Positions 8,905-33,064 of a stretch of DNA of 64,000 bases are shown here, in pieces (the stretch's first letter is position 1; each line of letters opens with the position of its first letter). The notes beneath the pieces were generated by a model. The model worked only from the letters and a program-made list of their open reading frames with translations, ran no database searches and was not told the DNA's origin. This DNA is from Streptomyces sp. NBC_00223. GTDB lineage: Bacteria > Actinomycetota > Actinomycetes > Streptomycetales > Streptomycetaceae. The stretch is from the NCBI RefSeq assembly GCF_036199905.1, contig NZ_CP108109.1, positions 3,271,501-3,335,500 on the forward strand. Direction: 5' to 3'. The position numbers were made by a program, and so were the translations under genes.

Positions 8905-8927
8905 TGTGGGGGTGCGCCGAGTGGGGA

Positions 8928-9413: not shown

Positions 9414-9578
9414 GTAAGCCACCTCCCTCGCAAGTGCAGTTGCAGTCGCTTCTACAGCAGGATGTCCTTCGGTTCTCCATTCCGAAGCTGCCGCATCCTT
9501 ACTCAGCGTAAAACTCCTGACTGCCAGGCTGCCACCCGAGCGGGTGACGTTTTGGGATGATCTCGGCGGTAAAGGGGG

Positions 9579-12690: not shown

Positions 12691-12733
12691 CAGCGCGGCG
12701 GCCGGCGGGGCCGGGTGACCGGAGAGGCCCCCG

Positions 12734-14677
12734 TCAGAGGTCGAGCCAGCGCATCCCCGGGTTGCCGCGCTGGGCCCGGCGCCACTGTTCGAGCGCGTCC
12801 GCGCCCGCCGCGAGCACTTCGGGCTCATCGGCGTCGAAGGCTTCCAGGGAGTCCAGGTCGTCCGGTACGCCCGTACCGTCCGGCGGCGCCGTGTCGGAGA
12901 GCAACTGGCCCTGGACCAGCTCCCGGTAGACCTCGTTGTCGGCGAGCAGTTCATGGTGGGTGCCGCTGCCCGCGATCCGGCCGCCGGACAGCACGATGAT
13001 CTGATCGGCCTCGACCACCGTGGACAGCCGGTGCGCGACCGTGACGACCGTGCACTGCGGGCCCGCGACACTGCGTACGGTGTCGCGCATCGCCAGTTCG
13101 TTGAGCGCGTCGAGCTGCGAGGTGGCCTCGTCGAGCAGCAGGACACGGGGGGCGCCGAGCAGCGCGCGGGCGATGGCGATCCGCTGACGCTCACCGCCCG
13201 ACATCAGCACGCCGGCGTCGCCGACGTCGGTGTCCAGTCCGTCCGGGAGCCGTTCGACCAGGCCGGTCAGCCCGACCCTGGCCACCACGGCGGCCACCTC
13301 GGCGTCGTCGGCGTCCGGGCAGGCGTAGCGGATGTTCGCGCCGACCGTGCCGGCCAGCACGGGTGTCTCCTGCTCGACGTAGGCGATCATCCGGCGCAGT
13401 CCGTTGAGCGGGACCTCGGTCACATCGAGCCCGTCGACCAGCACCCGGCCGGCGTCCGCCTCGTAGAAGCGCTCGACCAGGGCCAGCACGGTGGACTTGC
13501 CCGCGCCCGAGGGACCGACGATCGCGGTGTGGCTGCCGGGCGCGATCCGGAGGCTGACGCCGTTGAGTATCCGGCGCTCCAGATAGCCGAACTCGACGCC
13601 CTCGAAGACGATTTCGGCGGCGCCGCCGTGGCCCGCGGTGTGCGCCACGGTCTCCGGTTCACGCGCGGGCGCGCCGATCTCCTGCTCCAGCGGGAGGTTG
13701 AGGATCTCGTTGACCCGGTTGAAGGAGACCAGACCGCGCTGGAGGTCCGACATCAGCTGCCCGACGCTCACCAGCGGCACCGCCAGCGTCGTCAAGTACA
13801 GCAGGAAGGTGATCAGTTGGGAGATCGTCAGATGCCCGGTGGCCACCTGCCCGCCGCCCAGACCGAGGACGACCAGGAAGGAACCGTGGACGCCGAGGGT
13901 GATCGCGGGGGTGATCTGCGACTGGATCAGGGAGAGTTTCAGCCCGCCCGCGTACGCGCTCTGGGCCTGCTCCTCGATCTCGCGCAGTTCGCGGTCCTCG
14001 GCACGGCTCGCCTTGACCGTGCGGATCGCCCGCAGCGCGCGGTCCAGGACGGCGATCAGCCGGCCGATACTCGCCTGCGTCTGCATCGCGGCCGGCTTGA
14101 CCCGCGGCAGGATGGTGAAGACCACGCCGAAACTGACCGCCATGGTGGCCGCGGTGACGCCGAGCAGCGTCACGTCCACCATGCCCATCAGCACCAGCGA
14201 GGCGACCAGCGTGATGGCCCCGGTGATCGCGGCGACCGGGCCCGACGTGACGATGGACCGCAGCAGCATGGTGTCGCCGCTGGCCCGGGAGAGCAGATCG
14301 CCCGAACGCCGCTGGTCGTGCTCGGCGATCCGCAGATAGAGCAGATGCGCGCCGAGCCGGATGCGCAGATCGCGGACGACCGCCTCACCGGTCCGGCTGA
14401 GCACATAGCCGCCGACCCCGGTCAGCACCGCGCCGACCACGAAGATCGCCACGAGCAGCAGAATGATCCAGCGGATCTGCCGCCCGCCCACGACCGCGTC
14501 CAACAGCCGCCCGGTGACCAGGGGTTGGGCCAGGGTCGCGGCGTCGGCGACCAGTACCAGAAGGAACGCGCCGAACAGCGCGGCCCTGCGCTCGGCCGCG
14601 AAGCGCAGCAGACCGCGCACCCCCGGCTCGTACGAGGGCTGCGCGCCGCGCGCGGTTGTCGAGGGGTGTACGGCCAT
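12734..14677 (-). CDS. ABC exporter, fused permease and ATPase, downstream of the precursor-like genes
   Basis: 647 residues, half-size exporter of the MsbA/LmrA type. Six helices in the first 320 residues; nucleotide-binding domain with Walker A GPSGAGKST (about 387), signature MSGGERQRIA (about 492), Walker B RVLLLDEATS and switch His in VAHRLS. There is no C39 peptidase domain, so it would export an already cleaved or intact substrate. A tail of about 65 residues after the ATPase core is acidic and unusual. It follows three small paralogous genes in the same direction after 73 bases, behind AAAGGACGG, so it is the likely exporter of their product. Confidence 0.9.
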   Translation of the reverse strand: MAVHPSTTARGAQPSYEPGVRGLLRFAAERRAALFGAFLLVLVADAATLAQPLVTGRLLDAVVGGRQIRWIILLLVAIFVVGAVLTGVGGYVLSRTGEAVVRDLRIRLGAHLLYLRIAEHDQRRSGDLLSRASGDTMLLRSIVTSGPVAAITGAITLVASLVLMGMVDVTLLGVTAATMAVSFGVVFTILPRVKPAAMQTQASIGRLIAVLDRALRAIRTVKASRAEDRELREIEEQAQSAYAGGLKLSLIQSQITPAITLGVHGSFLVVLGLGGGQVATGHLTISQLITFLLYLTTLAVPLVSVGQLMSDLQRGLVSFNRVNEILNLPLEQEIGAPAREPETVAHTAGHGGAAEIVFEGVEFGYLERRILNGVSLRIAPGSHTAIVGPSGAGKSTVLALVERFYEADAGRVLVDGLDVTEVPLNGLRRMIAYVEQETPVLAGTVGANIRYACPDADDAEVAAVVARVGLTGLVERLPDGLDTDVGDAGVLMSGGERQRIAIARALLGAPRVLLLDEATSQLDALNELAMRDTVRSVAGPQCTVVTVAHRLSTVVEADQIIVLSGGRIAGSGTHHELLADNEVYRELVQGQLLSDTAPPDGTGVPDDLDSLEAFDADEPEVLAAGADALEQWRRAQRGNPGMRWLDL

Positions 14678-14750
14678 GGGGGTGTGCCGTCCTTTCCCGC
14701 ATGCCCAGAGGGCGGCGGAGCAGGCTGCTCCGCCGCCCCCGGGGTCGAGG

Positions 14751-15125
14751 TCAGTACTCGGTGGGCCAGAGCATCTGGCCCTGATCGAACGTGAGGGTCA
14801 TCTTGCGGGTGGTGTCCGGCAGGTACTTGACCACGCAGAACACGGTCGGACGGTCGTCGGCGAACCGGGACCGCTGGATCACCACGCCCTCCGGCGGGGC
14901 GATCCCGCGTGCGGCCAGCGCCTCGGGGTTGAGCAGCACCGTCCGCACGAACAGGGTCTTCGCCTCCAGCGTGGGGAGTTCGTTCATCTCCGCCAGGACC
15001 GCCTGGAATCCCGGGGTGCGCGCATAGGTGTAGATGTCCATGAGCGCGTCGAGCATCCAGGCCCGCTTGGTCTCCAGATCGACGTCGTCGATCGACACCG
15101 TCCCGGCCGCCGTGTCCGCCGTCAT
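14751..15125 (-). CDS. Precursor-like protein 3 (nitrile-hydratase-leader-like)
   Basis: 124 residues from ATG 15125, overlapping the previous stop by four bases. A paralogue of the next two genes: helical N-terminus (MLDALMDIYTYARTPGFQAV), then VLLNPEALAARGIAPPEG, VVIQRSRFADDRPTVFCV, and a polar tail ending GQMLWPTEY. The LxxPxAL..RGI..PEG pattern resembles nitrile-hydratase-like leader peptides (NHLP/TOMM leaders) of RiPP precursors. One cysteine only. Followed by an ABC exporter and divergent from two radical SAM enzymes. A precursor role is inference; it could instead be a small structural subunit. No assigned family known to me. Confidence 0.6.
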   Translation of the reverse strand: MTADTAAGTVSIDDVDLETKRAWMLDALMDIYTYARTPGFQAVLAEMNELPTLEAKTLFVRTVLLNPEALAARGIAPPEGVVIQRSRFADDRPTVFCVVKYLPDTTRKMTLTFDQGQMLWPTEY

Positions 15126-15529
15126 CCGATACCGCCCTCCTCCACCGGAAAGCTGTTGCCGTGGTCGAACGTGATGGTGATGCGTTTCCACTGCGCGCCT
15201 TCGGGCAGGGCCTGGCTGACGCAGAAAACTGTCGGCCGTTGGTCGCCGAACTCCGAGCGCTGGATACGGATGCCCTCCGGCGGCGTCAGGCCCCGGCGGG
15301 CCAGTTCCTCCGAGTTGAGCAGGACGCTACGGACGAAGTGCGACTTCTCCTCGAAGGACATCGCCGCCATCTCGCCGTAGAACATCCGCTGGAACGGCTC
15401 GGACGCGGTGTACCGCCCGATCGCGGCCAGCCCCTCGGCCATCCACCGGGACAGCTCGGGGTGCACCCCGCTGGCCAGCAGATCGCCTTCGTCCTCCGCG
15501 TCGACCAGCGTCAGGGGCCCGGCGGTCAC
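15122..15529 (-). CDS. Precursor-like protein 2 (nitrile-hydratase-leader-like)
   Basis: 135 residues from GTG 15529, overlapping the upstream stop (GTGA). About half of its central residues match precursor-like protein 3: LLNSEELARRGLTPPEG, IRIQRSEFGDQRPTVFCV. The helical front part reads WMAEGLAAIGRYTASEPFQR. The tail ITITFDHGNSFPVEEGGIG replaces LTFDQGQMLWPTEY. One cysteine within PTVFCV. Both copies keep IQRSxFxDxRPTVFCV almost unchanged while the tails differ, a pattern expected for leader plus variable core, or for a duplicated subunit. Confidence 0.6.
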   Translation of the reverse strand: MTAGPLTLVDAEDEGDLLASGVHPELSRWMAEGLAAIGRYTASEPFQRMFYGEMAAMSFEEKSHFVRSVLLNSEELARRGLTPPEGIRIQRSEFGDQRPTVFCVSQALPEGAQWKRITITFDHGNSFPVEEGGIG

Positions 15530-15891
15530 GCGGCCGGAGAGGAGCCGTAGGAGACGCAGACGATCTCCCCGACCGACACGCACAGGGTGGGGGCGGTGGA
15601 GATCGGCGCGGTGGTCGTCGTGTTGGAGTGGGCGAGCACGTCCTCGGCGGACAGCGCGCCGGCCGTCGGCGGCTCGAACCAGCGCGGGCTGATGCGCAGC
15701 GCCTCGGGGATCTCCAGGCCGCGCTCACGCAGGGCCTCCGGGGTCAGCCGCGCCGCGGTGGCCTCGAAGCGGTCGTCCACGGGCAGGGCGTTGATCTCGG
15801 CGGCGAGCGCGAGGTACTCGGGGCTCGTCACGACCCGGATGAGCTGCTCACTGGCGTCGCGTACGGCCTCGGGACTCAGGTCCTCGTTCAT
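15526..15891 (-). CDS. Precursor-like protein 1 with two-cysteine Ser/Thr-rich tail
   Basis: 121 residues from ATG 15891 (GGGAGG six bases upstream). The front half is a diverged copy of the two following proteins: EQLIRVVTSPEYLALAAEIN and LTPEALRERGLEIPEALRI. The last 35 residues are quite different from a globular protein: SNTTTTAPISTAPTLCV, then SVGEIVCVSYGSSPAA, with two cysteines nine residues apart. That is a plausible core for thioether chemistry by a radical SAM enzyme. First gene of the leftward operon. Identity as a RiPP precursor is a hypothesis. Confidence 0.6.
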   Translation of the reverse strand: MNEDLSPEAVRDASEQLIRVVTSPEYLALAAEINALPVDDRFEATAARLTPEALRERGLEIPEALRISPRWFEPPTAGALSAEDVLAHSNTTTTAPISTAPTLCVSVGEIVCVSYGSSPAA

Positions 15892-16124
15892 GTGCGTCCT
15901 CCCGGACTTCCGTTGGACTTGCGTCTGCTGGACTTCCCGCCACCCGGCGCCGGAGCGACCGGGGGCTGCTGGTGAACGAAGCTAGGAGTCGCCGGTTCAG
16001 GAGCGGTATCGCACAGGTATACGGACGAACAGTGCGCACGCCAGGATGGGTTGGCGGGCTGCGGCTTACCGGAAATGAACCGGCGGCAAGCCGACGTGAA
16101 AGTACGGTCGGCCATGCTCGCGGC
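15892..16124. promoter_or_regulatory. Divergent control region of the radical SAM cluster
   Basis: 233 bases between the leftward precursor-like operon and the rightward radical SAM operon. GGACTT occurs three times in one orientation (15904, 15915, 15930), the first two 11 bases apart, the spacing typical of SARP heptamer sites; but they lie very close to the start codon, so this is weak. TACGGT (16103-16108) is a possible -10 for the radical SAM gene. A GTATAC palindrome lies near 16018. Confidence 0.35.
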
Positions 16125-17243
16125 ATGCATCTGGCGGAGTACCTGGCGCTGCGGCCGGTTCCGGCGGCGGGCGTCGTCCTGTCGCTGACAGGGCGCTGCA
16201 CCTTGCGCTGCGCGCACTGCTCGACGGACTCCACGGGGGCGGGTACGGACCTTCCGGCGGGTGAACTGGTCCGCTTCGCGGCGGGGTTCGGGTCCCGGGC
16301 GGCCGGGCGCGACGCCGTCGGCGTATGTGCTCCGGCGGGTGCCCGGGCTTCCGACAACGCGCCCGTGCCGCCTGTGCCGCCCGCCGTCGCCCTGCTCACC
16401 GGGGGCGAACCGCTGCTGCGGCCCCGCCTGGTCCGTGAACTGGCCGACCTCTGCCGGGAGTCCGGCACCGCCACTTTTCTGCTCACCGGCATGTTCTACG
16501 CCCGGGCCGCCCGCGTACCGGCCCCCGTCGCCGCCGCGCTCGACGCGGTCGACCATGTGTCGGCCAGCCTGGACCGCTTCCACGAGGCCGAGGTGCCCAG
16601 GGAGGCGGTCTTCCGCGCGCTGCGGGAGCTGCTGGACCGGGGCAAGGACGTCAGCCTCCATCTGCTGGCCTCGGACGGCGACGACCCCTACCCGGACGAG
16701 ACGGCGGCCGCGGTGCGGCGCGAGTTCGGCGACCGGGTTCCCATGCTGGTCGGGCGGCTGGCCCCGGTGGGCCGGGCCCGTACGCTGCTGTTCGCCGCAC
16801 GGGGGCGAACGCCGGACCTGCCCGCTCCGGCCTCCGACGCCGGGCCCTGCGCGATGGCCGCGTGGCCCGTCGTCGGACCGGACGGCACGGTCACCGCGTG
16901 CTGCAACCAGGACGTGCTCGATCTGCGGCCGGTGCCCCCGCACCTCCTGCTCGGGCACGTCGGGCGCGACGACTGGTCGGAGATCCGCTCCCGTACGCTC
17001 GGCTCCCCCGCGCTGCGGGCGATTCGCACCCTCGGCGCCGGGTCCTGCGCCCGCTGCCGCGAACTGCGCGGTACGGAGCCGCGGACCGACGCGCTGGCGG
17101 CCGTACTGGAGGGCCCGGTACGGCAGTTGCAGGCACGCGCGGGGGCGGCCGGGTTCGCCCGGCGGTACGGGTCGGCCCGTCACGCCGACCTCGTTCTGCT
17201 CGGCGCCGCCGCCGACCCGGGGGCGGCGCCGTGCGCCGGCTGA
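16125..17243 (+). CDS. Radical SAM/SPASM-type protein 1
   Basis: 372 residues. The [4Fe-4S] motif CTLRCAHC sits at 25-32 (CxxxCxxC), followed by LLTGGEPLL, the SAM-binding GGEP loop. C-terminal cysteines GPCAMAAW, TACCNQDV and SCARCREL form a short SPASM/twitch-like cluster region for one or two extra iron-sulfur centres, usual in peptide-modifying enzymes. ATG 16125 is chosen from the start of homology; no Shine-Dalgarno is visible. First gene of a seven-gene operon, overlapping the second radical SAM gene by 13 bases. Likely a peptide maturase acting on the divergent small proteins; the bond made cannot be predicted. Confidence 0.85.
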   Translation: MHLAEYLALRPVPAAGVVLSLTGRCTLRCAHCSTDSTGAGTDLPAGELVRFAAGFGSRAAGRDAVGVCAPAGARASDNAPVPPVPPAVALLTGGEPLLRPRLVRELADLCRESGTATFLLTGMFYARAARVPAPVAAALDAVDHVSASLDRFHEAEVPREAVFRALRELLDRGKDVSLHLLASDGDDPYPDETAAAVRREFGDRVPMLVGRLAPVGRARTLLFAARGRTPDLPAPASDAGPCAMAAWPVVGPDGTVTACCNQDVLDLRPVPPHLLLGHVGRDDWSEIRSRTLGSPALRAIRTLGAGSCARCRELRGTEPRTDALAAVLEGPVRQLQARAGAAGFARRYGSARHADLVLLGAAADPGAAPCAG

Positions 17244-18682
17244 CGCTGGACGAGGTGGCGGCCGCGCGTGAGGAGCGCGGCCGCGCGGCGCTGCTCTACC
17301 TCACCGACCGCTGCCCGGTCGGCTGCGCGCACTGCTCGGTCGACGCGCGGCCGCTGGGGCCGCGGATCACCGACTGGGAACGGTTCGAGCAGGTGCTCGA
17401 CCTGCTGTGCGCGGAGGAACCGCTGTCCGTGGTGGGCGTGTCCGGCGGGGAGCCCTTCGTCGAGCGCCGAGGTCTGACGCTGGCCGCGCGGCGGCTCACC
17501 GACGCGGGCAAGCACCTTGTGCCGTACACCAGCGGGAACTGGGCCGCGTCCGGGCGGGTTCCGGCGTGGATACGGGAGGTGCTGCGGCTCAGCGCGTGTC
17601 TGGTGCTCAGCACGGACAGCTTCCACGCCGCCCGGCTGCCCTCGGCCGCGTTCGTGAACGCGGCGCGGACGGCGGCGGAGGAAGGCGTCTGGATCGGCTG
17701 CCAGGTCCTCGCGGACGGCGGACAGCCGGACGCGGCCCGCCGGTTGCTCCACGAGGCCCTCGGCCCGAACTGGCCCTCCTACGCGGAGATCAAACCCGTC
17801 CCCCTGCTCCCCTACGGCCGCGCCGCCACCCCCGACCCCGCGCCGACGGCCTCCCGGCCCGCGACCGGGTCTCGGCTCGCGCCGAACTCCCGGCCCGGGA
17901 CGACGGCCTCGCGGCCGACAGCGACCAACCCGTGGTCACCGAACGCGACTCTGCCGTCGGCAGAGGAGAACTCCCGGCCCGGCGGGGACGACTCGCCACT
18001 CACGGCGGGCAACACGGCTTCCACGAAAGCGGATTCGCAACCCGAAGAATCCAACCCGCGCCCCGCGACCCAGGCGCCCCCACGAGCCGCCGCGACCGGC
18101 TCACCCTCAACGACGGGGGCCTCGCCGTCCGGGGCCGACTCACCCGGCGCCGTAACCGGCTCATCGCCCGCGGCGGCGAACTCGCGGGGCGCCGCGACCG
18201 ACTCCCGGTTTACGGCAACAGACTCGCTGCCCGAGGCGGAGAACTCCCGGCCCGTCGGGGCCGACTCGGCGGCGGCGACGGGTGGTTCGCCTTCCGAGGG
18301 CGGGCTCGGGGTGGGGCGGTGTGGGGTGGCCGGGGCGCCGGTTGTGCGGTACGACGGGCGGATCGCGGTCTGCTGCAACGAGGTCGTGGCGGCCGGCGGC
18401 GGGCCTGCGGGGCTGCGCCGCGACAGCCGCGAGCCCGACGTGCTCGCCCGGCTCGCGGCCGACCCGTACCTCACCGTCCTCGGCGGCCCCGGCGCGGCCG
18501 CGCTGACCGCCCTGCCCGCGTACCGCGACCTCGCAGACCATCCGCGCACGGACCTGTGCGCGCTGTGCTGGCGGATGGCCGCCCGCCCCCCGGCCGGGCC
18601 CGCCCTGCGCGCCCTGGCCCTGCTGACCGCCGGTACGGCGGGCCCGTCCCGGTCACGGCCAGGCGCGGGGAGCGCGTCGTGA
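17231..18682 (+). CDS. Radical SAM protein 2 with long low-complexity insertion
   Basis: 483 residues from GTG 17231. CPVGCAHC (28-35) binds the iron-sulfur cluster; GVSGGEPFVE binds SAM. The C-terminal cysteine part GRCGVAG, IAVCCNEV and DLCALCWRM mirrors radical SAM protein 1. Between about residues 196 and 358 lies an insertion of some 160 residues made almost only of Ser, Thr, Ala, Pro, Gly, Asn and Arg, with recurrent NSRP and ADS words and no predicted fold. Such an insert between barrel and SPASM part is very unusual. Stop overlaps the next GTG by four bases. Possibly the two radical SAM proteins work as a pair. Confidence 0.85.
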   Translation: MRRLTLDEVAAAREERGRAALLYLTDRCPVGCAHCSVDARPLGPRITDWERFEQVLDLLCAEEPLSVVGVSGGEPFVERRGLTLAARRLTDAGKHLVPYTSGNWAASGRVPAWIREVLRLSACLVLSTDSFHAARLPSAAFVNAARTAAEEGVWIGCQVLADGGQPDAARRLLHEALGPNWPSYAEIKPVPLLPYGRAATPDPAPTASRPATGSRLAPNSRPGTTASRPTATNPWSPNATLPSAEENSRPGGDDSPLTAGNTASTKADSQPEESNPRPATQAPPRAAATGSPSTTGASPSGADSPGAVTGSSPAAANSRGAATDSRFTATDSLPEAENSRPVGADSAAATGGSPSEGGLGVGRCGVAGAPVVRYDGRIAVCCNEVVAAGGGPAGLRRDSREPDVLARLAADPYLTVLGGPGAAALTALPAYRDLADHPRTDLCALCWRMAARPPAGPALRALALLTAGTAGPSRSRPGAGSAS

Positions 18683-19371
18683 CCGGGCGGGCGGCGGCCC
18701 TGCGGGGCAAGACCGGCGTGGCGATGCCGGCGCTGCTGGGGGCCACCCGCCGGGTGTGGCGCGGCGACCGCCCGGCCGAGCGGTACGCCGAGTACCTGTG
18801 CCTGATGCATGCCGTGGTCCGCGCGAGCGTCCCGCTGATGACCGCGGCCGCCGCCCGCTGCGACGAACTGGCGGGGCAGGACCCCGTGGCCGGACCGCTC
18901 GCCGCCTACCTGCGTGAGCACTGCGTCGAGGAACGCGACCACGACGCCTGGCTGCTGGCCGACCTGGCGGCGATCGGCCGGGACCCGGCCGAGCCGGTCC
19001 GGCGCGTACCGCCGCCCGTCGTCGCGGAGTTGGTCGGCGCGCAGTACTACTGGCTGCTCCACCACCACCCGGTGGGCCTGCTCGGCTACATCGCCGTGCT
19101 GGAGGAGCAGCCGGGACCGCCGGAGCTGCCGGACCGGCTGGCCGCGCGTACCGGTCTGCCCCCGGAGGGCTTCCGTACGCTGCGCGCGCACGTCGCCGAG
19201 GACCCGGCGCACCGCGCGCGGCTGGACGAGGTGCTGGACGCCCTGCCGCTGGCGCCCGACCACGAGGCGCTGGTGGCCCTCAGCGCGCTGCACACCGTTT
19301 CGGCCGCGACGCGGCTCTTCGCTTGGCTGGCGGACCGCCGGCCGATGGGGGTGGACGCCCATGCCGTATGA
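18679..19371 (+). CDS. Haem-oxygenase-fold (HDO-like) iron enzyme
   Basis: 230 residues from GTG 18679 behind GGGGAG. All-helical, with the spacing of His and Glu ligands found in haem-oxygenase-like diiron oxidases: LMHAVVRASVPLM, REHCVEERDHDAWLLADL, YYWLLHHHPVGLLGYIAVLEE. It resembles the 'iron-containing redox enzyme' family; TenA-like proteins share the fold. In RiPP and other natural-product clusters such enzymes do oxidative C-C or C-N cleavage. Coupled to the radical SAM genes on one side and overlapping the small gene by 11 bases on the other. Reaction here is unknown. Confidence 0.75.
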   Translation: MTGRAAALRGKTGVAMPALLGATRRVWRGDRPAERYAEYLCLMHAVVRASVPLMTAAAARCDELAGQDPVAGPLAAYLREHCVEERDHDAWLLADLAAIGRDPAEPVRRVPPPVVAELVGAQYYWLLHHHPVGLLGYIAVLEEQPGPPELPDRLAARTGLPPEGFRTLRAHVAEDPAHRARLDEVLDALPLAPDHEALVALSALHTVSAATRLFAWLADRRPMGVDAHAV

Positions 19372-19714
19372 CAGCGCACCGAACGATCCGCGGGACCCGC
19401 GCGAACAGCGGGACCCGGCACCGGCCCGGGACCAGCGGGACCCGCACGACCCGAATCCGGCCCGGGACCAGCGGGACCCGGAACCGGCCTGGGACCCGCA
19501 CGACCCGGACACCCCGGACCGGGTCCACCCGCTGGACGCCCTCGCCGACGCGGGCTTCCCCGTCGCCGGCATGCCCCCGGAGCAGCGTGCCGTTCTCGCG
19601 GCCCTCACGCCCGCCGAGACCGACGTGCTGCTGGAGATCAAGCGGCGGCTGGACGACTCCGAGCCGGAGGTGCTGGCGCACGAAGCGGGCCTCATCGGCG
19701 GCCTGTTCTTCTGA
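19361..19714 (+). CDS. Small 'aroma-sacti cluster'-like protein
   Basis: 117 residues. The first 55 are a disordered Asp/Pro/Arg tract of near-repeats (PARDQRDPHDPN, PARDQRDPEPAW). The last 60 are conserved-looking: PLDALADAGFPVAGMPPEQR, AVLAALTPAETDVLLEIKRRLD, ending GLIGGLFF. This agrees with a small actinobacterial family that I remember being named 'aroma-sacti cluster domain', found beside radical SAM RiPP genes; I cannot verify that here. It could be a second kind of precursor or a small partner protein. ATG 19361 overlaps the upstream stop by 11 bases. Confidence 0.65.
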   Translation: MPYDSAPNDPRDPREQRDPAPARDQRDPHDPNPARDQRDPEPAWDPHDPDTPDRVHPLDALADAGFPVAGMPPEQRAVLAALTPAETDVLLEIKRRLDDSEPEVLAHEAGLIGGLFF

Positions 19715-19727
19715 CCGGGAGGTTGCG

Positions 19728-22700: not shown

Positions 22701-22901
22701 CGCGCGGTGGCCGCCGCCGCGCGCACCGACTGTCCGGCCGGGCTCGGCACCGCCCGGCTCGACCGGGCCCGGGTGCTGGCCTCGCTCGGCCGGGGCGGGG
22801 AGGCCGCGGCGGCGGCGCGGGCCGCCCGCGCGGAGTTCCTGCGCAAGGACCATCAGGTCGGCCGCGGTTGGGCCGACGCCTTCCTCGACGGGTTGGAGTG
22901 A
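19728..22901 (+). CDS. Zinc ribbon - class III cyclase - ATPase - TPR regulator
   Basis: 1,057 residues from ATG 19728 (GGGAGG upstream). Domains: zinc ribbon CPHC...CPYC (7-24); class III nucleotidyl cyclase domain (about 40-215) with metal Asp49 in VVFCDLTGSTEL and the second Asp in KFIGDAVMAVFG, plus NVRIGINTGEV; STAND/AAA ATPase with Walker A GDAGIGKT (about 267) and ALVLDDCHW as Walker B; then about 500 residues of MalT/TPR-like helical repeats. Both metal aspartates are present, so cyclic nucleotide synthesis is possible. Such proteins act as large signalling switches. In a biosynthetic operon it may sense a peptide or partner. Confidence 0.88.
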   Translation: MSDTARCPHCSAAVPEQARFCPYCGAETAHDPASDAPEARKLVTVVFCDLTGSTELSGRLDAEALRAVTLRYFAVMRERLERHGGTVEKFIGDAVMAVFGVPVLHEDDAQRAVRAALEMLTALDRLNEELERDHGVRLNVRIGINTGEVVATGDPFARQVLVSGEVVNVAARLEQNARPGEILIGPQTYRAVHRLVVTEVVGPLRLKGKADTVTGRRLLDLRGDDPAVLRRFDSPFVGRADELREVRLIAERAVRGRQVQLLTLFGDAGIGKTRLARHWLAQASAEGMLVGSGRCRPYGEGGSLLALADAVRPLADAVGRADGPGHPDAAEALAVLRGGLLLDGAPSPSLEDTCWAVTWLLEAAGRDRPLALVLDDCHWASPVLYDVVDHIVAEVRDTPVVVLCTARPEMLDRRPGWGGGVLNASATVVPPLTPDEVRLLAGHLTGGARREVVAHASEGADALLDRAEGNPLYLEQLLAMVGESGPGDGESGTADGVCPPDTLPPTMHALLAARIEALEPGQRATLDVAAVAGRDFTLDEVGAVLGASAHPARAAEVEPAVHALVRRRLVEPSRTAARRRGTPYRFASALIREVAYGGMAKRTRAERHERLADHLLARGADDETVGAHLERAHRLRTELGPHDTALEPLRQAAARHLGAAGLTAADRCDLIRAADLLERAVHLHGRGSPEGLPAAQRLGEVLCGLGRAEEGRTLIATVHTDATAAGERRIAAHARLHLACTDPAGDFAASVRAATGTAPVFEAYGDHLGLARVTLRLGQHEQVQGRFAASRTHLEQALAHADSAGAGTETANALGALAIALWLGPTPAAEAVVRCRALLDAHADRRAVRAAVHYPLAVLHALRGEFEPARAGLAVAEPIMRDLGLGHAQAFTALFTASVDLLAGRLGDAETRLRESRTAAQRLGDSALTATAARNLTRVLLMRGRYDEAAREIEAVTAEPSSPVDAAETDGVRARILAERGDGEQGLRLADRAVAAAARTDCPAGLGTARLDRARVLASLGRGGEAAAAARAARAEFLRKDHQVGRGWADAFLDGLE

Positions 22902-22905
22902 CACC

Positions 22906-23760
22906 GTGACCGGTACAGCCGACGCCGCTCGTACCGCCCAGGCGCGTACGGGCACCTCGCTGACCTGGAGCCTGCTCACCCAGGAGCGCGGCACCGCGGA
23001 GGTCCCCGCCGCGTGGGGCGGGGAGGTCACGCCCGAGTGGGCCTGGGGCGGATCGACCGGCCGGGGGGTGCGGGTCTGCGTCGTGGACAGCGGGGTCGAG
23101 GCGGAGCATCCGATGATCGGCCCGGTGGACGGCTCCTGGGTGGTCGCCCCAGTGAACGGCTCGATCCGGGTGACCGAGACCGCGCCCGTCGACGTCTGCG
23201 GGCACGGCTCGGCGTGCGCGGGCATCATCCGCTCGCTCGCGCCCGAGTGCGAGATCCACAGTGTGCGGGTGCTCGGCGAGAGTTTCGGCGGCACCGGGGA
23301 CGTCTTCGTGGCGGGGCTGCGGTGGGCGGTGGAGCAGGGCTTCGACGTGATCAATCTGAGCCTGTCCACCTCCCGGCCCAAGTTCACCGCGCCGCTGCGG
23401 GAGGTCGCCGACGACGCGTTCTTCCGGCGCAGCGTGATCGTCGCGTCGGCGCACAACATGCGGGTGGAGAGCTTCCCCTGGCGGTTCTCCTCGGTGATCT
23501 CGGTCGGCAGCCACGACGTGGACGACCCGGATCTGGTGCTCTACAACCCGTCCCCGCCGGTGGAGTTCTTCGCGCAGGGACAGAACGTCGAGGTCGCGTG
23601 GCTGGGCGGCGCGCGGACCCGTAACACCGGCAACAGCTTCGCGACCCCGCGGATCTCCGGCCTGTGCGCGCTGATCCTCGCCAAGCATCCGCGGGTCACC
23701 GCCTTCCAGCTCAAGAACATCCTTTATCTGACCGCAGCGAACGTCCGAGGAGAGTCATGA
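22906..23760 (+). CDS. Cytoplasmic subtilisin-like (S8) serine protease
   Basis: 284 residues from GTG 22906, four bases after the cyclase stop. Catalytic triad Asp61 (CVVDSG), His100 (CGHGSAC) and Ser244 (GNSFATP), with oxyanion Asn184 in SAHN, all intact. There is no signal peptide and no propeptide of the usual length, so it is intracellular. In RiPP clusters an S8 protease often removes the leader peptide; here it is a good candidate for processing the three divergent small proteins. It overlaps the GAF gene by four bases. Confidence 0.88.
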   Translation: MTGTADAARTAQARTGTSLTWSLLTQERGTAEVPAAWGGEVTPEWAWGGSTGRGVRVCVVDSGVEAEHPMIGPVDGSWVVAPVNGSIRVTETAPVDVCGHGSACAGIIRSLAPECEIHSVRVLGESFGGTGDVFVAGLRWAVEQGFDVINLSLSTSRPKFTAPLREVADDAFFRRSVIVASAHNMRVESFPWRFSSVISVGSHDVDDPDLVLYNPSPPVEFFAQGQNVEVAWLGGARTRNTGNSFATPRISGLCALILAKHPRVTAFQLKNILYLTAANVRGES

Positions 23761-24410
23761 CCCACAGCAACGAGCTGCTGGCGGCGGTGTCGGCGGCGAT
23801 GGCGGATTCCGGCGCGGAGAGCCGCAGGCTGCTCCAGTCCGTGGTCGACGCCGCGCGCGCGATCTTCGGGGCGCAGGCCAGCTCCATCTTCCTGCTGGAC
23901 GAGGAGAGCGGCGAGCTGGTCTTCGAGGCGGTCGCCGGGCAGGGTGAGGAGTGGCTGGTCGGGCAGCGCTTCCCGCGCGACCGGGGGATCGCGGGGTGGG
24001 TGGCGAGCAGCGGCGAGGCGATGGTGGTCGACGACCTGTCGGCCAGCGCCTCCTTCGCCCGGGACATCGCCGAGTCCACCCGGTACGTGCCGCGTTCGCT
24101 GATGGCGGTGCCGCTGAGCTACGACGACCAGGTGCTCGGCGTGCTCGAAGTGCTGGACGCGAGCCCGCAGGCGCGGTCCGGGCTGGCCGAGTTGGAGCTG
24201 CTGGGGCTGTTCGCCAACCAGGCCGGGGTGGCGCTGCGGATCGTCTCGCGGACCCGGGCGGTACGCGGCGCGCTGGTCGGCGCGGGCGAGGACTTCAGCG
24301 AACTGGTCGGCCTGGTGCAGACGTTGCAGCGGCTGGACGGCGACCGCAGGGAGTCCGGCTTCCGGCTGATCGACTCCCTGCGCGACGTCCTGAGCCCGAC
24401 GGCGCCCTGA
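23757..24410 (+). CDS. GAF-domain protein
   Basis: 217 residues, ATGA overlap with the protease gene. A single GAF fold at about 25-165: SSIFLLDEESGELVFEAVAG, GIAGWVASSGEAMVVDDL, SLMAVPLSYDDQVLGVLEVL. No output domain; the C-terminal 45 residues are helical (FSELVGLVQTLQRLD). GAF domains bind cyclic nucleotides or small ligands, so it could respond to a product of the cyclase encoded two genes upstream. That link is inference. Last gene of the operon. Confidence 0.85.
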   Translation: MTHSNELLAAVSAAMADSGAESRRLLQSVVDAARAIFGAQASSIFLLDEESGELVFEAVAGQGEEWLVGQRFPRDRGIAGWVASSGEAMVVDDLSASASFARDIAESTRYVPRSLMAVPLSYDDQVLGVLEVLDASPQARSGLAELELLGLFANQAGVALRIVSRTRAVRGALVGAGEDFSELVGLVQTLQRLDGDRRESGFRLIDSLRDVLSPTAP

Positions 24411-24721
24411 CCGCGCCCTGACCGCGAGCGGGCCCGGGTACGGGGGACGGGCCCGGCGGGCGGTACGGGTCAGGTGATGCGGGCCCGGCGGTACGGGTCC
24501 GCGCCCCGGCACGGGCCGACGGCACGGGCCCGGTGGTACGGGTCCGGCGGTACGGGTCCGGCGGTACGGGTCCGGCGGTACGGGTCCGCGCCCCGGCACG
24601 GGCCGACGGCACGGGTCCGCGCCCGGGACGTGACGGGCGGGCCCTGGCCGCCGCGGTGGGGCCGGGCCCGCCCTTCCGGCCCCGCGCCGCGCGGGCGGGA
24701 CCCCGGCGGCGGAGGCCGGGG
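24411..24721. repeat. 14-bp tandem repeats and a 38-bp duplication between convergent genes
   Basis: GGTACGGGTCCGGC is repeated head to tail about four times (24535-24590), and GTACGGGTCCGCGCCCCGGC with about 18 following bases is present at 24491 and again at 24578. No gene. The repeats separate the GAF and SARP genes and may help terminate transcription. Confidence 0.75.
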
Positions 24722-26647
24722 TCAGCGGGTGGCGGTCCGGGCCCGCGCCGGGGTGAGTTCCCCCGACGGTTCCCGCTCCCGCTCCCACTCGCCTTCCTCC
24801 CGTGCCCGCTCCCGGGCGTACACCCGGACCGGGAACGGCAGCCGGTAGCACGCGTCTCCCTCGTCGCTCCCCCACGCGTGGAAGACCACCAGATGGGAGG
24901 CGATCAGCCGCTCCACGGCCTTCTCCGCCTGCGGCAGCCCGCAGCCGAGCGCCGCCGCGGCCTCGTGCAGCCCGAACTCGGCGTCCGTGAGCAGGGCGAC
25001 CCGGCGCAGGGTGGCCCGGTCGGCGGCGGGCAGGTCCTGGTACGCGCTGTCCAGCCGCGGCCGTACCCGTAGATCGCCCGCGACGAGTTCGTCGAGCAAC
25101 TGCCGTTCGTCGGCCAGCCGTCGGGCGTAGCGGGCGAGGGTGAGATGGCGCAGCGCGGCGAGATTCGCGCCGACGATCCGGATCGGCAGCGGTAACAGCC
25201 CGCACACGGCCACGAGATCGCGGGCGGTGACCGGTTCCTCGGCCACCCGGCGCTGGCCGATCAGCCGGCCGAGCAGGGCCAGGCCCTCGGTCTCGTCCAT
25301 CGGCTGGAGGTCGACATGCTCGACCGCTTCGAGGCCGACCAGCCGGCGCCGGCTGGTCACCACCACCCGGCTCTCGCCCGCGCCCGGCAGCATCGGTCTG
25401 ACCTGGGCCTCGTCCAGCGCGCCGTCCAGCACGACGAGCATCCGCCGGTCGGCGAGCAGCGTGCGGTAGAGCGCGGCGCGCTCGTCCAGCGCGCGCGGCA
25501 GCGGCCCGGACGCCCCTACCCCGCGCAGGAGTTCGGCGAGCACGTCGACCGCGGGGCGCGGCCGGTTCTGGCCGTTGCGCAGCCGGACCAGCACCCGCCC
25601 GTCCGGGAAACGCCGTCCCCACTGGTGGGCGCAGTGCACCGCGAGCGCCGTCTTGCCGACCCCGGCCAGCCCGGTGACCACCGTGGCGCGGTGCGGCGCG
25701 GACGCGTCGACGGCGGCCGTCAGCTCTCGGACGTGTATGTCGCGGCCGGTGAAGTCGGCCAGATCCTGGGGCAGTTGGGTGCGGTCGGTGCGGATGACGA
25801 CGGGCTTGGGGCGCTCCGCCGGTGACGGCTCAAGGCTGGGGTCGCCGCGCAGCATCGCCTCGTACAGCCGCCCGAGTACGGGGCTCGGCTGCATTCCGAG
25901 GTTGCGGACCAGGCCCTGCCGCATCGCGTCGAACTGCGCGAGCGCCTCCGCCTGCCGGCCGGACTGGTAGAGCGCGAGCATCTGGGCGTGCCGCAGCCGC
26001 TCGCGGTAGGGGTGGCGGCGGGCCAGCTCGTCGATGTCGTCCACGTGCTGGGCGTGGTGGCCGAGCGCCAACTCGGCCTGGCACCAGTCCTCGTAGACGG
26101 TCAGATAGCGGTCCTCCAGCTGCTCCGCCTCGCTGGCGAGCGCGGGGACCGACGCCAGGTCCGACAGCGCGGGGCCGCGCCACATGCCGACCGCCGTACC
26201 CAGCAGATGCGCTGCCTGGGTGCTGTCGCCGCTGCGCATGGCCAGCCGTCCGCCGCGCGCCAGCTCCTCGAAGCGCAGCAGGTCCAGCTGTTCGGCCTGG
26301 ACGTGGATCACATACCCGGGTGGTCTGCGGACGAGCACCTGCTGGTGCCCGTCCCCGGGACACCCGCGTTCCTCGTCCCCGCGTAACGCCTTGCGCAGCG
26401 CGGAGACGTACACCTGGAGGTTCTTGTGCGCGGTCCGGGGCGGCGCGCCCGACCACAGCGCCTCGCAGAAGGCGTCCACGGACACGATCCGGTTGGCCCG
26501 GCAGAGCAGCAGCCCCAGCACGACCCGTTGCTTCAGGGGACCGAGGTGCAGTGGATGCGTCCCCGTGTGGGCCTCCAGCGCTCCCAGTATCCGGAAGCGC
26601 ACGGGCGCCCTCGGTAAGGAGAGTTCCTCGACGACCCCTTCACCCAC
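24722..26647 (-). CDS. SARP-family regulator with NB-ARC ATPase domain
   Basis: 641 residues from GTG 26647 behind AGGAGG. Order: OmpR-like winged helix (VRFRILGALEAHTG, LGPLKQRVVLGLLLCRANR), bacterial transcriptional activation domain to about 260 (YLTVYEDWCQAELALG, HPYRERLRHAQMLALYQSGR), then an NB-ARC/STAND ATPase with Walker A TGLAGVGKTALAVH and Walker B MLVVLDGAL, and a helical C-terminus. This is the AfsR layout without the TPR part. SARPs activate natural-product clusters by binding direct heptamer repeats in the -35 area; it is the obvious pathway-specific activator here. An upstream in-frame extension is unlikely. Confidence 0.9.
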   Translation of the reverse strand: MGEGVVEELSLPRAPVRFRILGALEAHTGTHPLHLGPLKQRVVLGLLLCRANRIVSVDAFCEALWSGAPPRTAHKNLQVYVSALRKALRGDEERGCPGDGHQQVLVRRPPGYVIHVQAEQLDLLRFEELARGGRLAMRSGDSTQAAHLLGTAVGMWRGPALSDLASVPALASEAEQLEDRYLTVYEDWCQAELALGHHAQHVDDIDELARRHPYRERLRHAQMLALYQSGRQAEALAQFDAMRQGLVRNLGMQPSPVLGRLYEAMLRGDPSLEPSPAERPKPVVIRTDRTQLPQDLADFTGRDIHVRELTAAVDASAPHRATVVTGLAGVGKTALAVHCAHQWGRRFPDGRVLVRLRNGQNRPRPAVDVLAELLRGVGASGPLPRALDERAALYRTLLADRRMLVVLDGALDEAQVRPMLPGAGESRVVVTSRRRLVGLEAVEHVDLQPMDETEGLALLGRLIGQRRVAEEPVTARDLVAVCGLLPLPIRIVGANLAALRHLTLARYARRLADERQLLDELVAGDLRVRPRLDSAYQDLPAADRATLRRVALLTDAEFGLHEAAAALGCGLPQAEKAVERLIASHLVVFHAWGSDEGDACYRLPFPVRVYARERAREEGEWEREREPSGELTPARARTATR

Positions 26648-27401
26648 TGACCCTCCTGAGTTCGGTCGACTGTCCAGGTTCAGGTGCAGGCATGTACGGG
26701 TGGTGCGGACGTACGGCGTTGCCGACGTACGGCGGTACGGGCGCGCTGACGCGCGGACGGTGCTCGGGTGCGGCCGATACGTACCGCGGTGCGGTCGGTA
26801 CGTACGGTGTATTCCCCAAGCGCATGTTGGCACCGCCCGCAGCCGGGGTCCACAGGGCCTCCACCCCCCAACGGGGGCAGTACAACCGGAATTTAAGAAA
26901 TGCCTAACGCGGGCCGACCGGCCGACGCGGCACTTCCTCCCGGAAAATTCACCGCACGCGCCGCAATGACCCCTTGAGTCACATTGGACACGGTGACACG
27001 GACGTCAATGGGCGGCAAAGCCGGGCGGCGGAAATCCCTCACTCCTCGCCGGGCGGCGCCGTGCCCGGGGGTGGGCGCGGCCCGGCCCGCCACGGCCGAC
27101 GGCGGCGGGGCGCCGGGTGTCCGGCGGATCCCCGGTCCCGCGCGACGGGCGGGTCGGCGGAGAACGGCTCGGCGAAGCGGCACTCGCCGCCGCGGCAGCG
27201 CCGCCGGTGGGCTCCCCTACGGCGTTGACTGTGGCCACCACGGACGCTCATCGAATGCAACTCCCGGATGTGGAACGGGAATTGGGCGACAATTCGCTGC
27301 CGTACCGCGGAGATGTCACGGCCCGCCCCGAATCCCCCGTTGGTGACCGCGATCCGGCCAAGCCGGGGTCGGGCGGCCGGGCCCGCTGCCAGACTCGGCC
27401 C
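26648..27401. promoter_or_regulatory. Divergent intergenic region, SARP and caspase genes
   Basis: 754 bases without a recognisable gene. 26690-26810 is rich in CGTACGG and CGGTACG words. Just before the caspase gene CAGACT (27390-27395) lies six bases from the ATG, a leaderless promoter pattern. Several base runs near 26880-26990 are clearly less GC-rich than the surroundings. Confidence 0.5.
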
Positions 27402-29387
27402 ATGGGGATCAGCAGGGGGACCACCGGGCGCCGCGGCGCCGTCCACGCGCTTCTGGTGGGGATCAACGACTACGGACCGGACGCCGCCCACGCGGCCCTG
27501 CGCGGCTGCCGCAACGACGTCGCGGCCGTCCGCGAGTGGCTGGAAGAGAACGTCGCGGGGCCGCTGTCCGTACACGAACTGCTCGACGGCGACGCCACCC
27601 GGGCGGCGGTCACGGCCGCCGTGCGCGACCACCTCGGGCAGGTGGGGCCCGGGGACACGGCGCTGTTCTGGTTCTCCGGGCACGGCACGCACCTCGTCAC
27701 CGGTGACGGGGGCCGTCCGCGCAAGGAGAGCGCCGGGCGGGTCCCGGCGATGGCCTGCGTGGACGGGCCGGTGCTCGACCGGGAGCTCGGGGCGCTGCTC
27801 GACGGCGTGGCGGCGGGAGGCGCGCACACGGTGGCGGTGATGGACTGCTGCTACTCCGGGGGCCCGACGCGGGACACCGCCCTCACCCCCCGCTTTCTCG
27901 CCCCCTCCCCGCGGTGGCAACTCCCGGACCCCGCAGAGCCGTTCGGCGCCGCGACGGCCGCTCGCGCCGGCGCCGGGGCGGCGCCGGCCCGCCGGTACGT
28001 GGTGCTCGGGGCCGGCCGGCCGCGTCAACTCTCGTACGAGAAGCGGATCGAGGGCCGGGTGCACGGACTGTTCACGTGGTCGCTGCTGGACGCGCTGACC
28101 TCCGGGGCCTGGTCCGGCGCGACCTACCGCGAACTGCTGGTGGCCGCCCACGGCCGCGTGCAGACCATGGAGGCGCGGCAGCACCCCGTGCTGCTGCCGT
28201 CGGAGCCCGGCGGGGTCGCCGACCAGCCGTTCCTGGGCGGCGCGGTCCGCACCTCCGCCCCGCATCTGCTGCGGCACGGCCGCGAGGGGTGGGAGGTGGA
28301 CTGCGGCACCGCGCACGGCCTGCGCGGCGGGCGGAGCGCGGGCACGGAGTTCGCGGTCGCGGGCGAAGCCGTCCCGGCCTCCCGCACGGGACGGGTGCGG
28401 GCCGTCGACGTGCGCGTCGACCACACCCTGGTCGGCGCGTCCGGCTGGACGCCCGACGAGAGCCTGGTCTATCCGGTCGAGGTCTCCGCGCTGGCGCTGC
28501 CGCCCGCGACCGTCGTGGTCGACGACACCGCCGACCCGGCCGCCGGTCTGTGGCTGCGCGAGGCGATCGCCGGCGCGCACCCCGACGGTGGCCCGACTCC
28601 CCTGCTGCGTACGGAGGTTGTGGGCACCGAGGGCCACGGCGGTCTGCTGCGGCTGCGGGCGGTGCTGCGCGGCGGGCGGGCCGTACTGCTGCGGCGTGAC
28701 GGCACCCCGGCCGTACCGCCGCTGCCGCTCACCGAGCGCGCCGACGCCCGCCGGGTGGTGGCGTGCCTGATCCACCTCACCCGCTGGCACCAGGCCCGCG
28801 CGCTGTCCAACCCCGCGTCCCCGCTGGGCGGTCTGGTACGGATCGAGGTCGTGCCGTGGGACGGCGGCCCGCCGCTGACCGCCGCGCCGGGCGAGGACGT
28901 GGTCGTGCGGTACGGCGGGGCGCCGGGCCGCCGGCAGGAGCCGTGGGTGTCGCTGCGTATCCGCAACACCTCGCGGACCAGGACGCTTTGGTGCGCCCTG
29001 CTGGATCTCACCGACAGTTACGCGGGCCACAGCGCGCTCTTCCCCGGCGGCTTCATCGGCCCCGGCCGGACCGGATTCGCCCTGGACGGCGACCCCGTAC
29101 GGCTCTCGCTCCCGCCGTCGCGGCCGCCGCGGCCGGGGGCGTACGCGCGCGACTGGCTCAAACTCATCGTCGCGGAGGGGGAGTTGAACACGCTGCCGTT
29201 CCAGCTGCCGCCGTGGAACCCGGGCGGTCCCGCCACCGCGGGTCCGACGGGCCCGGCCGCCGACGGGGTGTGGCGGCTGGCCCCCGACGGCGCTCGGGAC
29301 GCGGACGTGACGCCCGGCCAGTGGGGTACGGCGCCGACCGTGGTCCTGCGTACGGTCGTCCCACCGGCCACGGCCTCCGGTACGTGA
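27402..29387 (+). CDS. Caspase-like (C14) peptidase with large C-terminal domain
   Basis: 661 residues. The N-terminal 250 residues are a caspase-hemoglobinase domain: ALLVGINDYG, catalytic His94 in WFSGHGTH, catalytic Cys150 in AVMDCCYSG. The His-Cys dyad is intact and the protein has no signal peptide. The other 400 residues are beta-rich (WVSLRIRNTSRTRTLWCALL, LFPGGFIG, FQLPPW), a C-terminal module commonly seen in bacterial caspase-like proteins, function unknown. CAGACT six bases upstream of ATG 27402 indicates a leaderless mRNA. Next to the SARP; might regulate the radical SAM cluster or be a separate stress or conflict protease. Confidence 0.88.
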   Translation: MGISRGTTGRRGAVHALLVGINDYGPDAAHAALRGCRNDVAAVREWLEENVAGPLSVHELLDGDATRAAVTAAVRDHLGQVGPGDTALFWFSGHGTHLVTGDGGRPRKESAGRVPAMACVDGPVLDRELGALLDGVAAGGAHTVAVMDCCYSGGPTRDTALTPRFLAPSPRWQLPDPAEPFGAATAARAGAGAAPARRYVVLGAGRPRQLSYEKRIEGRVHGLFTWSLLDALTSGAWSGATYRELLVAAHGRVQTMEARQHPVLLPSEPGGVADQPFLGGAVRTSAPHLLRHGREGWEVDCGTAHGLRGGRSAGTEFAVAGEAVPASRTGRVRAVDVRVDHTLVGASGWTPDESLVYPVEVSALALPPATVVVDDTADPAAGLWLREAIAGAHPDGGPTPLLRTEVVGTEGHGGLLRLRAVLRGGRAVLLRRDGTPAVPPLPLTERADARRVVACLIHLTRWHQARALSNPASPLGGLVRIEVVPWDGGPPLTAAPGEDVVVRYGGAPGRRQEPWVSLRIRNTSRTRTLWCALLDLTDSYAGHSALFPGGFIGPGRTGFALDGDPVRLSLPPSRPPRPGAYARDWLKLIVAEGELNTLPFQLPPWNPGGPATAGPTGPAADGVWRLAPDGARDADVTPGQWGTAPTVVLRTVVPPATASGT

Positions 29388-32944: not shown

Positions 32945-33051
32945 GGAAGGATGCTCCCCCGGGTGAGGACGACGGCGTAGACGCCGCAGACCACGGCGAC
33001 GGACAGCAGGGCGGCGATCAACCGGCCGACCCTGCGCAGGAGTTCGGTCAT
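32941..33051 (-). CDS. 36-residue single-helix membrane peptide
   Basis: Reads MTELLRRVGRLIAALLSVAV followed by 16 residues ending TRGSILP. A basic start (LLRR, GR) and a hydrophobic stretch of about 18 residues predict one membrane helix with the N-terminus inside. ATG 33051 has GAGGAGG upstream, and its stop (TGA in GTGA) overlaps the start of the deacetylase, while the glycosyltransferase ends 13 bases before. Coupling on both sides supports a real gene. By analogy with small partners of PNAG synthases (PgaD, IcaD) it may help the glycosyltransferase; no sequence similarity to them can be claimed. Confidence 0.7.
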   Translation of the reverse strand: MTELLRRVGRLIAALLSVAVVCGVYAVVLTRGSILP

Positions 33052-33064
33052 TACGGAGTCCTCC

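Follow-up and report, generated by a model that had tools for sequence, protein, structure and literature searches.

The window analysed here is a stretch of 64,000 nucleotides (nt) from the single-contig genome (7.96 Mb) of Streptomyces sp. NBC_00223. It carries a gene cluster with two radical S-adenosylmethionine (SAM) enzymes, rSAM1 and rSAM2, a putative haem-oxygenase-fold oxidase (HDO) and a small gene at 19361-19714, and the cluster most likely makes a ribosomally synthesised and post-translationally modified peptide (RiPP) from a short, aromatic-ended precursor. All genes described below were open at the coordinates given in a reading-frame check of the window. The rightward operon has seven genes with intergenic spacings of -13, -4, -11, +13, +4 and -4 nt, in agreement with an earlier note made from the sequence alone (the original prediction), according to which these genes overlap or nearly touch:

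16125 to 17243, plus strand: rSAM1, a CxxxCxxC radical SAM protein with a SPASM-like auxiliary-cluster region (PF04055)
17231 to 18682, plus strand: rSAM2, an EpeE/YydG-like radical SAM protein (PF04055)
18679 to 19371, plus strand: HDO, a putative haem-oxygenase-fold oxidase (PF14518)
19361 to 19714, plus strand: most likely the precursor peptide, 117 amino acids (NF045560)
19728 to 22901, plus strand: protein with a zinc ribbon, a class III nucleotide cyclase, a STAND ATPase and TPR repeats (PF00211)
22906 to 23760, plus strand: S8 subtilase (PF00082)
23757 to 24410, plus strand: GAF-domain protein (PF01590, E 2e-19)

An alternative upstream GTG start of rSAM1 is possible at 15972. The original prediction had named six of the seven genes, and their domains were confirmed. 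PF04055 matched twice and PF14518 once, as expected for two CxxxCxxC radical SAM proteins and an HDO-fold enzyme. Both metal-Asp motifs are present in the class III cyclase, the proposed S8 triad Asp61/His100/Ser244 is conserved in 28, 28 and 27 of 28 sequences, and the GAF domain was recovered. The gene that had been left unnamed is 19361-19714, and it is the key gene.

The product of 19361-19714 matches NF045560, the aroma-sacti domain, with 74.9 bits (E 4.3e-21; curated cut-off 30 bits). It consists of a repetitive N-terminal extension, a three-helix leader with the NF045560 domain at residues 57-107, and the C-terminal tail PEVLAH-EAGLIGGLFF. From its sequence, it is most likely the real precursor of the cluster, rather than three small proteins (A1-A3) of a leftward operon described below. 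The leader is predicted with high confidence as three helices and the core as flexible; the predicted local distance difference test score (pLDDT) is 92-97 at residues 61-100 and 51-55 beyond. Foldseek with this model gave nothing at E <= 0.001. The N-terminal extension is encoded by tandem repeats of 27-36 nt at 19391-19509.

To find relatives, the front part of rSAM2 was searched in 297 genomes of the family, and 24 had a match. Beside the window's own genome, nine matches were strong (E 3.1e-46 or better) and 14 were weak (3e-14 or worse). All nine strong neighbourhoods contained rSAM1, rSAM2, HDO, cyclase, S8 and GAF genes, and A1-A3 were absent from all nine (tblastn, E 1e-3). An rSAM2 alignment profile searched against wider genome contigs gave 50 loci (39 strong, one truncated and ten weak). 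The strong actinobacterial loci include Streptomyces, Kitasatospora, Nonomuraea, Planobispora, Catellatospora and Glycomyces; the others are from a Chloroflexota metagenome-assembled genome, Symploca, Mesorhizobium, Jannaschia, Sphingorhabdus, Noviherbaspirillum, Limnobacter, Paraburkholderia and Candidatus Endobugula. After L066 and L083 (on the same contigs as L029 and L032) and the truncated L096 were dropped, 46 other rSAM2 loci were counted, each covering at most about 22 kb; they include close relatives, and the counts are not independent. The ten weak loci (L097-L106) were kept outside the 46 as a negative control.

The precursor was found in 40 of the 46 loci, rSAM1 in 44 and HDO in 43, and at the same thresholds neither precursor nor HDO was found in any of the ten control loci. 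Because of these counts, the conserved core of the system is the precursor, rSAM1, rSAM2 and HDO. This core reaches Chloroflexota, a cyanobacterium and proteobacteria, and since the same gene set recurs in many other genomes, the gene arrangement is beyond chance. The original prediction had proposed that the small leftward paralogues, S8, GAF and cyclase be looked for around rSAM2. Cyclase (28/46), S8 (27/46) and GAF (26/46) genes indeed co-occur with it, and the GAF gene adjoins S8 in most GAF-bearing loci; the small paralogues do not (0/46). SARP-like genes were found in 20 loci, major facilitator superfamily (MFS) genes in 16 and an ATP-binding cassette (ABC) gene in one. In the proteobacterial loci the recognisable genes are the core only, and cyclase, S8, GAF and SARP are actinobacterial additions. 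Plasmid searches with precursor and rSAM2 gave no match. Some clusters are larger: in each of L063, L068 and L070, a single cluster has two HDO genes and two precursors, ending in AFVW and GVLF, on its opposite strands. In L072 (Mesorhizobium) the gene after HDO, at 12722-14407, is Asp/Asn beta-hydroxylase-like with DUF6817 and is possibly a further modifying enzyme; the related L067 has a similar gene at the same place.

We collected 58 distinct precursors that share leader and tail. The last residue is Trp in 34, Phe in 19, His in two, Tyr in one and another residue in two, so that 56 of 58 end in an aromatic residue. Gly stands at position -5 in 56 of 58, and Trp outside the last seven residues amounts to 0.03%. 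In an alignment of 48 rows, the -5 Gly and one Glu of the leader are the only columns without variation. The core is thus short and C-terminal, with the pattern G-x-hydrophobic-hydrophobic-aromatic-COOH. The cluster thus shows the general mark of a RiPP cluster, a small gene for leader and core that adjoins the modifying enzymes and is conserved together with them. Several loci have two to four tandem precursors. In L026 (oriented 8157-9662), and likewise in L027, L028 and L029, an MFS gene reads in frame and without a stop into the precursor, and a purine-rich Shine-Dalgarno-like stretch precedes the precursor ATG, suggesting either a fusion or an internal start. In L115 and L116, a precursor ending in IGGLLF lies near secreted-protease-like and cytochrome P450-like genes, roughly 20 kb from the cluster, and L115 also has SAM synthetase-like and methylthioadenosine phosphorylase-like genes there (neighbours named by eye from translations).

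The NCBIfam name of the leader suggests a sactipeptide, and the leader domain is indeed shared with StsA sactipeptides (NF045559) and the aroma-sacti group (NF045560). StsA was reportedly described by Precord in 2023. The window precursor reaches 27.7 bits against NF045559 (E 2.7e-6), below the cut-off of 75 bits. Unlike the StsA type, the window has other enzymes, an HDO and no core Cys. Across the 58 precursors, Cys occurs only four times upstream of the last seven residues, and a single tail type, ASGGWCW, contains one. Moreover, no HDO, cyclase, S8 or GAF match was found in the Cys-bearing relatives with the same leader, four StsA-like loci whose tails read CLCGAWSGSG. We consider a sactipeptide product extremely improbable, and sactipeptide chemistry was rejected for the window because its precursor contains no Cys at all, and so none in the core for thioether links.

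The leader was also used to compare the tails with the enzymes. A leader-only profile, built with the last 14 residues removed to avoid circularity, was searched in the loci and in 19 stretches around NF045560 matches (among 394 genomes of the class, this model matches 12). L125 and L130 repeat L057 and L059 and were removed, and reading frames running off stretch ends were left out of the count. Aromatic precursor ends were found in 65 of 67 cases in loci with HDO, and in 2 of 13 in loci without HDO. Both aromatic HDO-minus cases are from the genomes of L032 and L033, whose HDO cluster lies elsewhere. The HDO-minus tails are of the types LKLV, VKVV, IFRIG and the Cys-bearing CLCGAWSGSG. In six loci with an rSAM1-type enzyme and HDO and no rSAM2 match, the precursors still end in GGALF. 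The aromatic end thus goes with HDO and rSAM1 and not with rSAM2, because it is kept in these six loci.

Among the HDO-minus loci, L121-L124 have aroma leaders ending in LKLV together with SARP, cyclase, S8 and GAF genes, and no rSAM1, rSAM2 or HDO match in a stretch of about 20 kb. In L138, a radical SAM gene with a B12-binding-like domain (below cut-off) lies at 7596-9848, between an IFRIG-ending precursor and cyclase-S8-GAF. Judged by these genes, L138 appears to carry the same leader with another chemistry.

Both radical SAM enzymes resemble a peptide epimerase. The nearest solved structure is YydG/EpeE, for the rSAM2 profile at E 6.7e-15 over nearly the full length (17-306 of 334) and for the rSAM1 profile at E 1.1e-8 over the front half. 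The curated cut-off of TIGR04078 (EpeE/YydG epimerase), 300 bits, was missed by both rSAM2 (30 bits) and rSAM1 (18.8 bits), and the SPASM match of rSAM1 is below its cut-off. A CC pair is kept in 47 of 47 rSAM2 sequences. Ala replaces the second Cys of this pair in the PDB sequence 8ai3, and 8ai1 has CC. We take this second Cys to be residue 223 of EpeE, on the basis of a construct offset. In EpeE, the hydrogen donor is Cys223 and the modified residues are Val and Ile (PMC8326336). By sequence, rSAM2 therefore has the EpeE-like catalytic Cys. In 45 rSAM1 sequences, the second residue is Cys in 18, Gly in 15, Ser in four, Thr in two, Pro in two, Met in one and unresolved in three. In a midpoint-rooted tree rSAM2 forms one clade, and the single enzymes of loci with only one group with rSAM1. 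We infer that rSAM1 and rSAM2 work like EpeE, without being filed as EpeE. The window rSAM2 also has a Ser/Pro/Ala-rich low-complexity insert of about 160 amino acids (17828-18304), absent from eight aligned relatives.

The HDO model has a pLDDT of 95.7. Its closest structure is 3dde (Z 23.4), followed by haem oxygenases (up to 20.3), CADD (19.9), TenA proteins (19.6) and HrmI (18.9); AetD, SznF and UndA are not among the best 50 structures listed, which does not exclude them. The candidate ligands are E84 or E85, H88, E142, H171, D175 and H178, each conserved in 43 or 44 of 44 sequences. By conservation and spacing, HDO is a haem-oxygenase fold with a putative set of three His and three carboxylate ligands. 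In HDO structures with bound substrate, the iron is ligated by the substrate, and AetD and SktA rearrange tryptophan (PMC13108848). By analogy, a free C-terminal aromatic residue would suit HDO as a substrate.

The almost obligatory aromatic end (56/58) could also mean that both radical SAM enzymes form C-C or C-O cross-links to the terminal aromatic ring, while HDO hydroxylates or desaturates an aliphatic residue. A possible precedent for the latter is VarO, a haem-oxygenase-like protein suggested to be a dehydrogenase in the thiovarsolin RiPP pathway (PMC6511847). The rSAM1 residue after the auxiliary Cys is often not Cys, as would be expected of an enzyme without a thiol hydrogen donor. However, the last Trp is often replaced by Phe and rarely by His or Tyr, the two positions before the end hold hydrophobic residues almost throughout and offer no evident partner for ring closure, and the nearest solved enzyme is an epimerase. 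We therefore consider cross-linking quite unlikely.

The S8 enzyme, with PF00082 as its single Pfam domain and below-cut-off matches to the mycosin and QhpE models, is probably the leader protease. The motif V-x-[AG]-[HQ], placed 5 to 14 residues from the C-terminus, occurs in 50 of 54 precursors from loci with S8, compared with 12 of 26 from loci without S8. All 12 motif-bearing precursors of the latter group are actinobacterial, and the motif is missing in the Chloroflexota, cyanobacterial and proteobacterial ones. The pattern would fit an S8 cleavage site, confounded as it is by ancestry. The cyclase protein resembles a TOMM kinase/cyclase model, below its cut-off. Five of the 13 HDO-minus loci (L121-L124, which are alike, and L138) combine the same leader with cyclase, S8 and GAF, and the cyclase/S8/GAF module thus partly follows the leader across chemistries. 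One further regulatory gene adjoins the operon, as the original prediction had stated, and is the probable activator of the cluster:

24722 to 26647, minus strand: SARP/AfsR-type regulator (BTAD E 1.4e-38; start chosen by us)

In the mycofactocin and pyrroloquinoline quinone (PQQ) pathways, a radical SAM enzyme acts on an aromatic residue of a ribosomal peptide. Similarly, the product here could be a peptide-derived redox cofactor or internal signal, with the C-terminal aromatic residue and its neighbours excised and kept in the cell. The proteobacterial cassette has only precursor, rSAM1, rSAM2 and HDO, with no S8 or MFS gene of the kinds tested, and its core is very short and nearly constant (TVGGFVW or VVGGFVW, Paraburkholderia excepted). 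A haem-oxygenase-fold protein is also used in PQQ synthesis (PMC13108848). Unlike the mycofactocin and PQQ pathways, the operon has no matching precursor model and no PqqD- or MftB-type recognition protein among its family matches. Against the cofactor reading, flank clustering showed no further family beyond core and precursor that stood out in at least three proteobacterial loci (not every group was identified). Furthermore, the cores vary in actinobacteria, and the MFS (16/46) and SARP-like (20/46) genes suggest a secreted metabolite. We regard the cofactor reading as unlikely.

The pathway that we favour, and hold to be reasonably probable, starts from the 19361-19714 product: rSAM2 epimerises it, rSAM1 and HDO act at its C-terminal aromatic residue, and S8 removes the leader. 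We infer all of these chemical steps from sequences and predicted models. With its EpeE-like catalytic Cys, rSAM2 would convert some of the aliphatic residues directly preceding the C-terminus to the D-form, and its paralogue rSAM1 would abstract hydrogen from the same tail. HDO would oxidise the C-terminal aromatic residue, which could bind iron through its free carboxylate, and the reaction would most likely be an oxidative decarboxylation or a desaturation. In actinobacteria, S8 may cut after V-x-A/G-H/Q and release a product some 8-12 residues long (in the window about EAGLIGGLFF). Regulation would fall to the cyclase-STAND protein, the GAF protein and SARP.

Several observations weigh against this pathway or its parts. 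The HDO-minus sample is small and related, with about four tail types and two special cases, and a Fisher test on 65/67 versus 2/13 overstates the evidence and is to be discounted because the loci are related to each other. L060 and L071 have rSAM2 without rSAM1 or HDO, and L058 lacks HDO. The precursor was not found in six of the 46 loci (L032, L033, L058, L060, L071 and L074); the genomes of L032 and L033 do have a leader-bearing gene, at a distance of roughly 20 kb. Both non-aromatic exceptions among the 58 precursors are extra peptides of one locus, L075. The CC pair is also present in the window rSAM1, in 18 of 45 rSAM1 sequences and in five of six single enzymes, and because it is not confined to rSAM2, the division of labour between the two enzymes is uncertain. 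In structure comparison, true haem oxygenases and TenA proteins lie about as near to the HDO model as HDOs do; the fold alone cannot assign it, and therefore the assignment rests on the ligand residues. The five HDO-minus loci with the cyclase/S8/GAF module represent two types only, and no S8 or GAF match was found in the other eight of 13, two of which have a cyclase at the stretch edge. Finally, the proteobacterial cassettes are without S8 or an exporter of the kinds tested, which leaves release there unexplained. As to L075, its two extra leader-bearing peptides, one with two Cys, lie at 13432-13960 beside an HDO-type cluster.

The remaining genes are neighbours of the rightward operon. A leftward operon (A1-A2-A3-ABC, 12734 to 15891) diverges from it, and a caspase gene lies beyond SARP:

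15526 to 15891, minus strand: A1, small protein
15122 to 15529, minus strand: A2, small protein
14751 to 15125, minus strand: A3, small protein
12734 to 14677, minus strand: ABC transporter (PF00664 and PF00005)
27117 to 29387, plus strand: caspase-domain protein (PF00656, E 6.5e-17)

The original prediction had described A1-A3 as three paralogues beside an ABC exporter without a peptidase domain. The exporter is as described, since the Pfam search gave PF00664 and PF00005 and no peptidase domain. A2 and A3 are clear paralogues (47% identity), and A1 is at best distantly related; the window A3 and the A1 orthologue of a relative share 30.8% over 65 amino acids (E 0.004). No NCBIfam leader model was among the matches of A1-A3 at E 1, and the Pfam search likewise gave no lead. 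A2-like genes occur in three of the 297 family genomes, the window's own included.

A1-A3 had been proposed as the precursors, to be processed by the two radical SAM enzymes and to leave the cell through the ABC transporter, with the link to be called accidental if they did not co-occur with radical SAM genes. Within the window they lie divergently next to the rightward operon, and the C-terminal tail of A1 contains Cys. In a same-genus genome (G075, a 670-contig assembly), A1-A2-A3-ABC keeps the window's gene order with 79% DNA identity and again diverges from rSAM1, inside which the contig breaks off. Orthologues of S8 (84%), GAF (87%) and SARP (76%) are on another contig of G075, with no caspase match there. 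The middle of the cluster was not found in G075 with the window DNA, nor did NF045560 or the cyclase give a match there; these searches had no positive control and their silence is weak, whereas those with rSAM1 and S8 did give matches. Against A1-A3 as precursors, they occur in 0 of the 46 loci, compared with 40 for the aroma precursor, and an A2/A3 profile matches one of 394 class genomes, the window's own. Moreover, the genome G182 has A-like genes, is not among the 24 with an rSAM2 match and gives only weak rSAM1 profile matches. Neither the NF045560 leader domain nor cyclase nor S8 was found in G182, although the first two of these searches had no positive control and their silence is weak. 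We therefore rejected A1-A3 as the precursors of the family, and that they are the substrates in the window is very improbable. The proposed link fails for the family by the prediction's own test, but the shared layout in G075 indicates that it is not pure accident within the genus. The leftward operon is a genus-level satellite and not the family's precursor source.

The caspase gene stands beside the cluster as had been noted. It occurs in 0 of the 46 loci and was not found on the SARP-bearing contig of the same-genus relative; it is a neighbour and not part of the system. Further downstream, a leftward pair at 30824-35551 has below-cut-off similarity to PgaB deacetylase and to PgaC/NodC glycosyltransferases and is possibly a polysaccharide locus. 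Overall, the original prediction of a RiPP or a peptide-based intracellular signal is supported in part, in that a RiPP-type cluster co-occurs with S8 and cyclase/GAF genes, and it chose the wrong precursors.

Among known systems, the epipeptides (EpeX/YydF with EpeE/YydG) are similar in that rSAM2 aligns nearly full length with EpeE and keeps its catalytic Cys, and EpeE acts on Val and Ile, as we propose for rSAM2 (PMC8326336). The cluster differs in its HDO, its leader, the aromatic C-terminal end of its core and its two EpeE-like enzymes, which miss the TIGR04078 cut-off and whose epimerisation is deduced from sequence. The thiovarsolins share a RiPP pathway with a haem-oxygenase-like protein but use YcaO/TfuA and a repeated precursor, and the seven genes given as sufficient for them include no radical SAM gene (PMC6511847). 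AetD and SktA share the HDO fold and an aromatic amino acid substrate, but that substrate is free brominated tryptophan, whereas the presumed substrate here is a peptide C-terminus. Among the papers listed by searches of a literature largely without subscription journals, we found none on the combination of this precursor, two radical SAM enzymes and HDO. The precursor type is already known to curators through the NCBIfam leader model, and the HDO-containing class with two radical SAM enzymes and aromatic ends looks undescribed.

More tentatively, these loci could represent one RiPP class spread over several phyla. In it, a dimetal HDO would oxidatively alter, for instance decarboxylate, the ribosomally encoded aromatic residue at the C-terminus once an EpeE-like enzyme has epimerised the tail, and the product would be a very short D-amino-acid peptide with an unusual C-terminus. 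Several chemistries might then share this leader as a plug-in, which in actinobacteria would often be tied to a single control module of cyclase-STAND, subtilase and GAF. If true, an HDO acting on a peptide C-terminus would add to RiPP chemistry, in a core cassette that actinobacteria, Chloroflexota, a cyanobacterium and proteobacteria have in common. The correlation between aromatic tail and HDO makes the oxidation site directly testable. The cyclase/S8/GAF module is frequently present with the leader and gives an opening for studying how nucleotide signalling could control peptide maturation.

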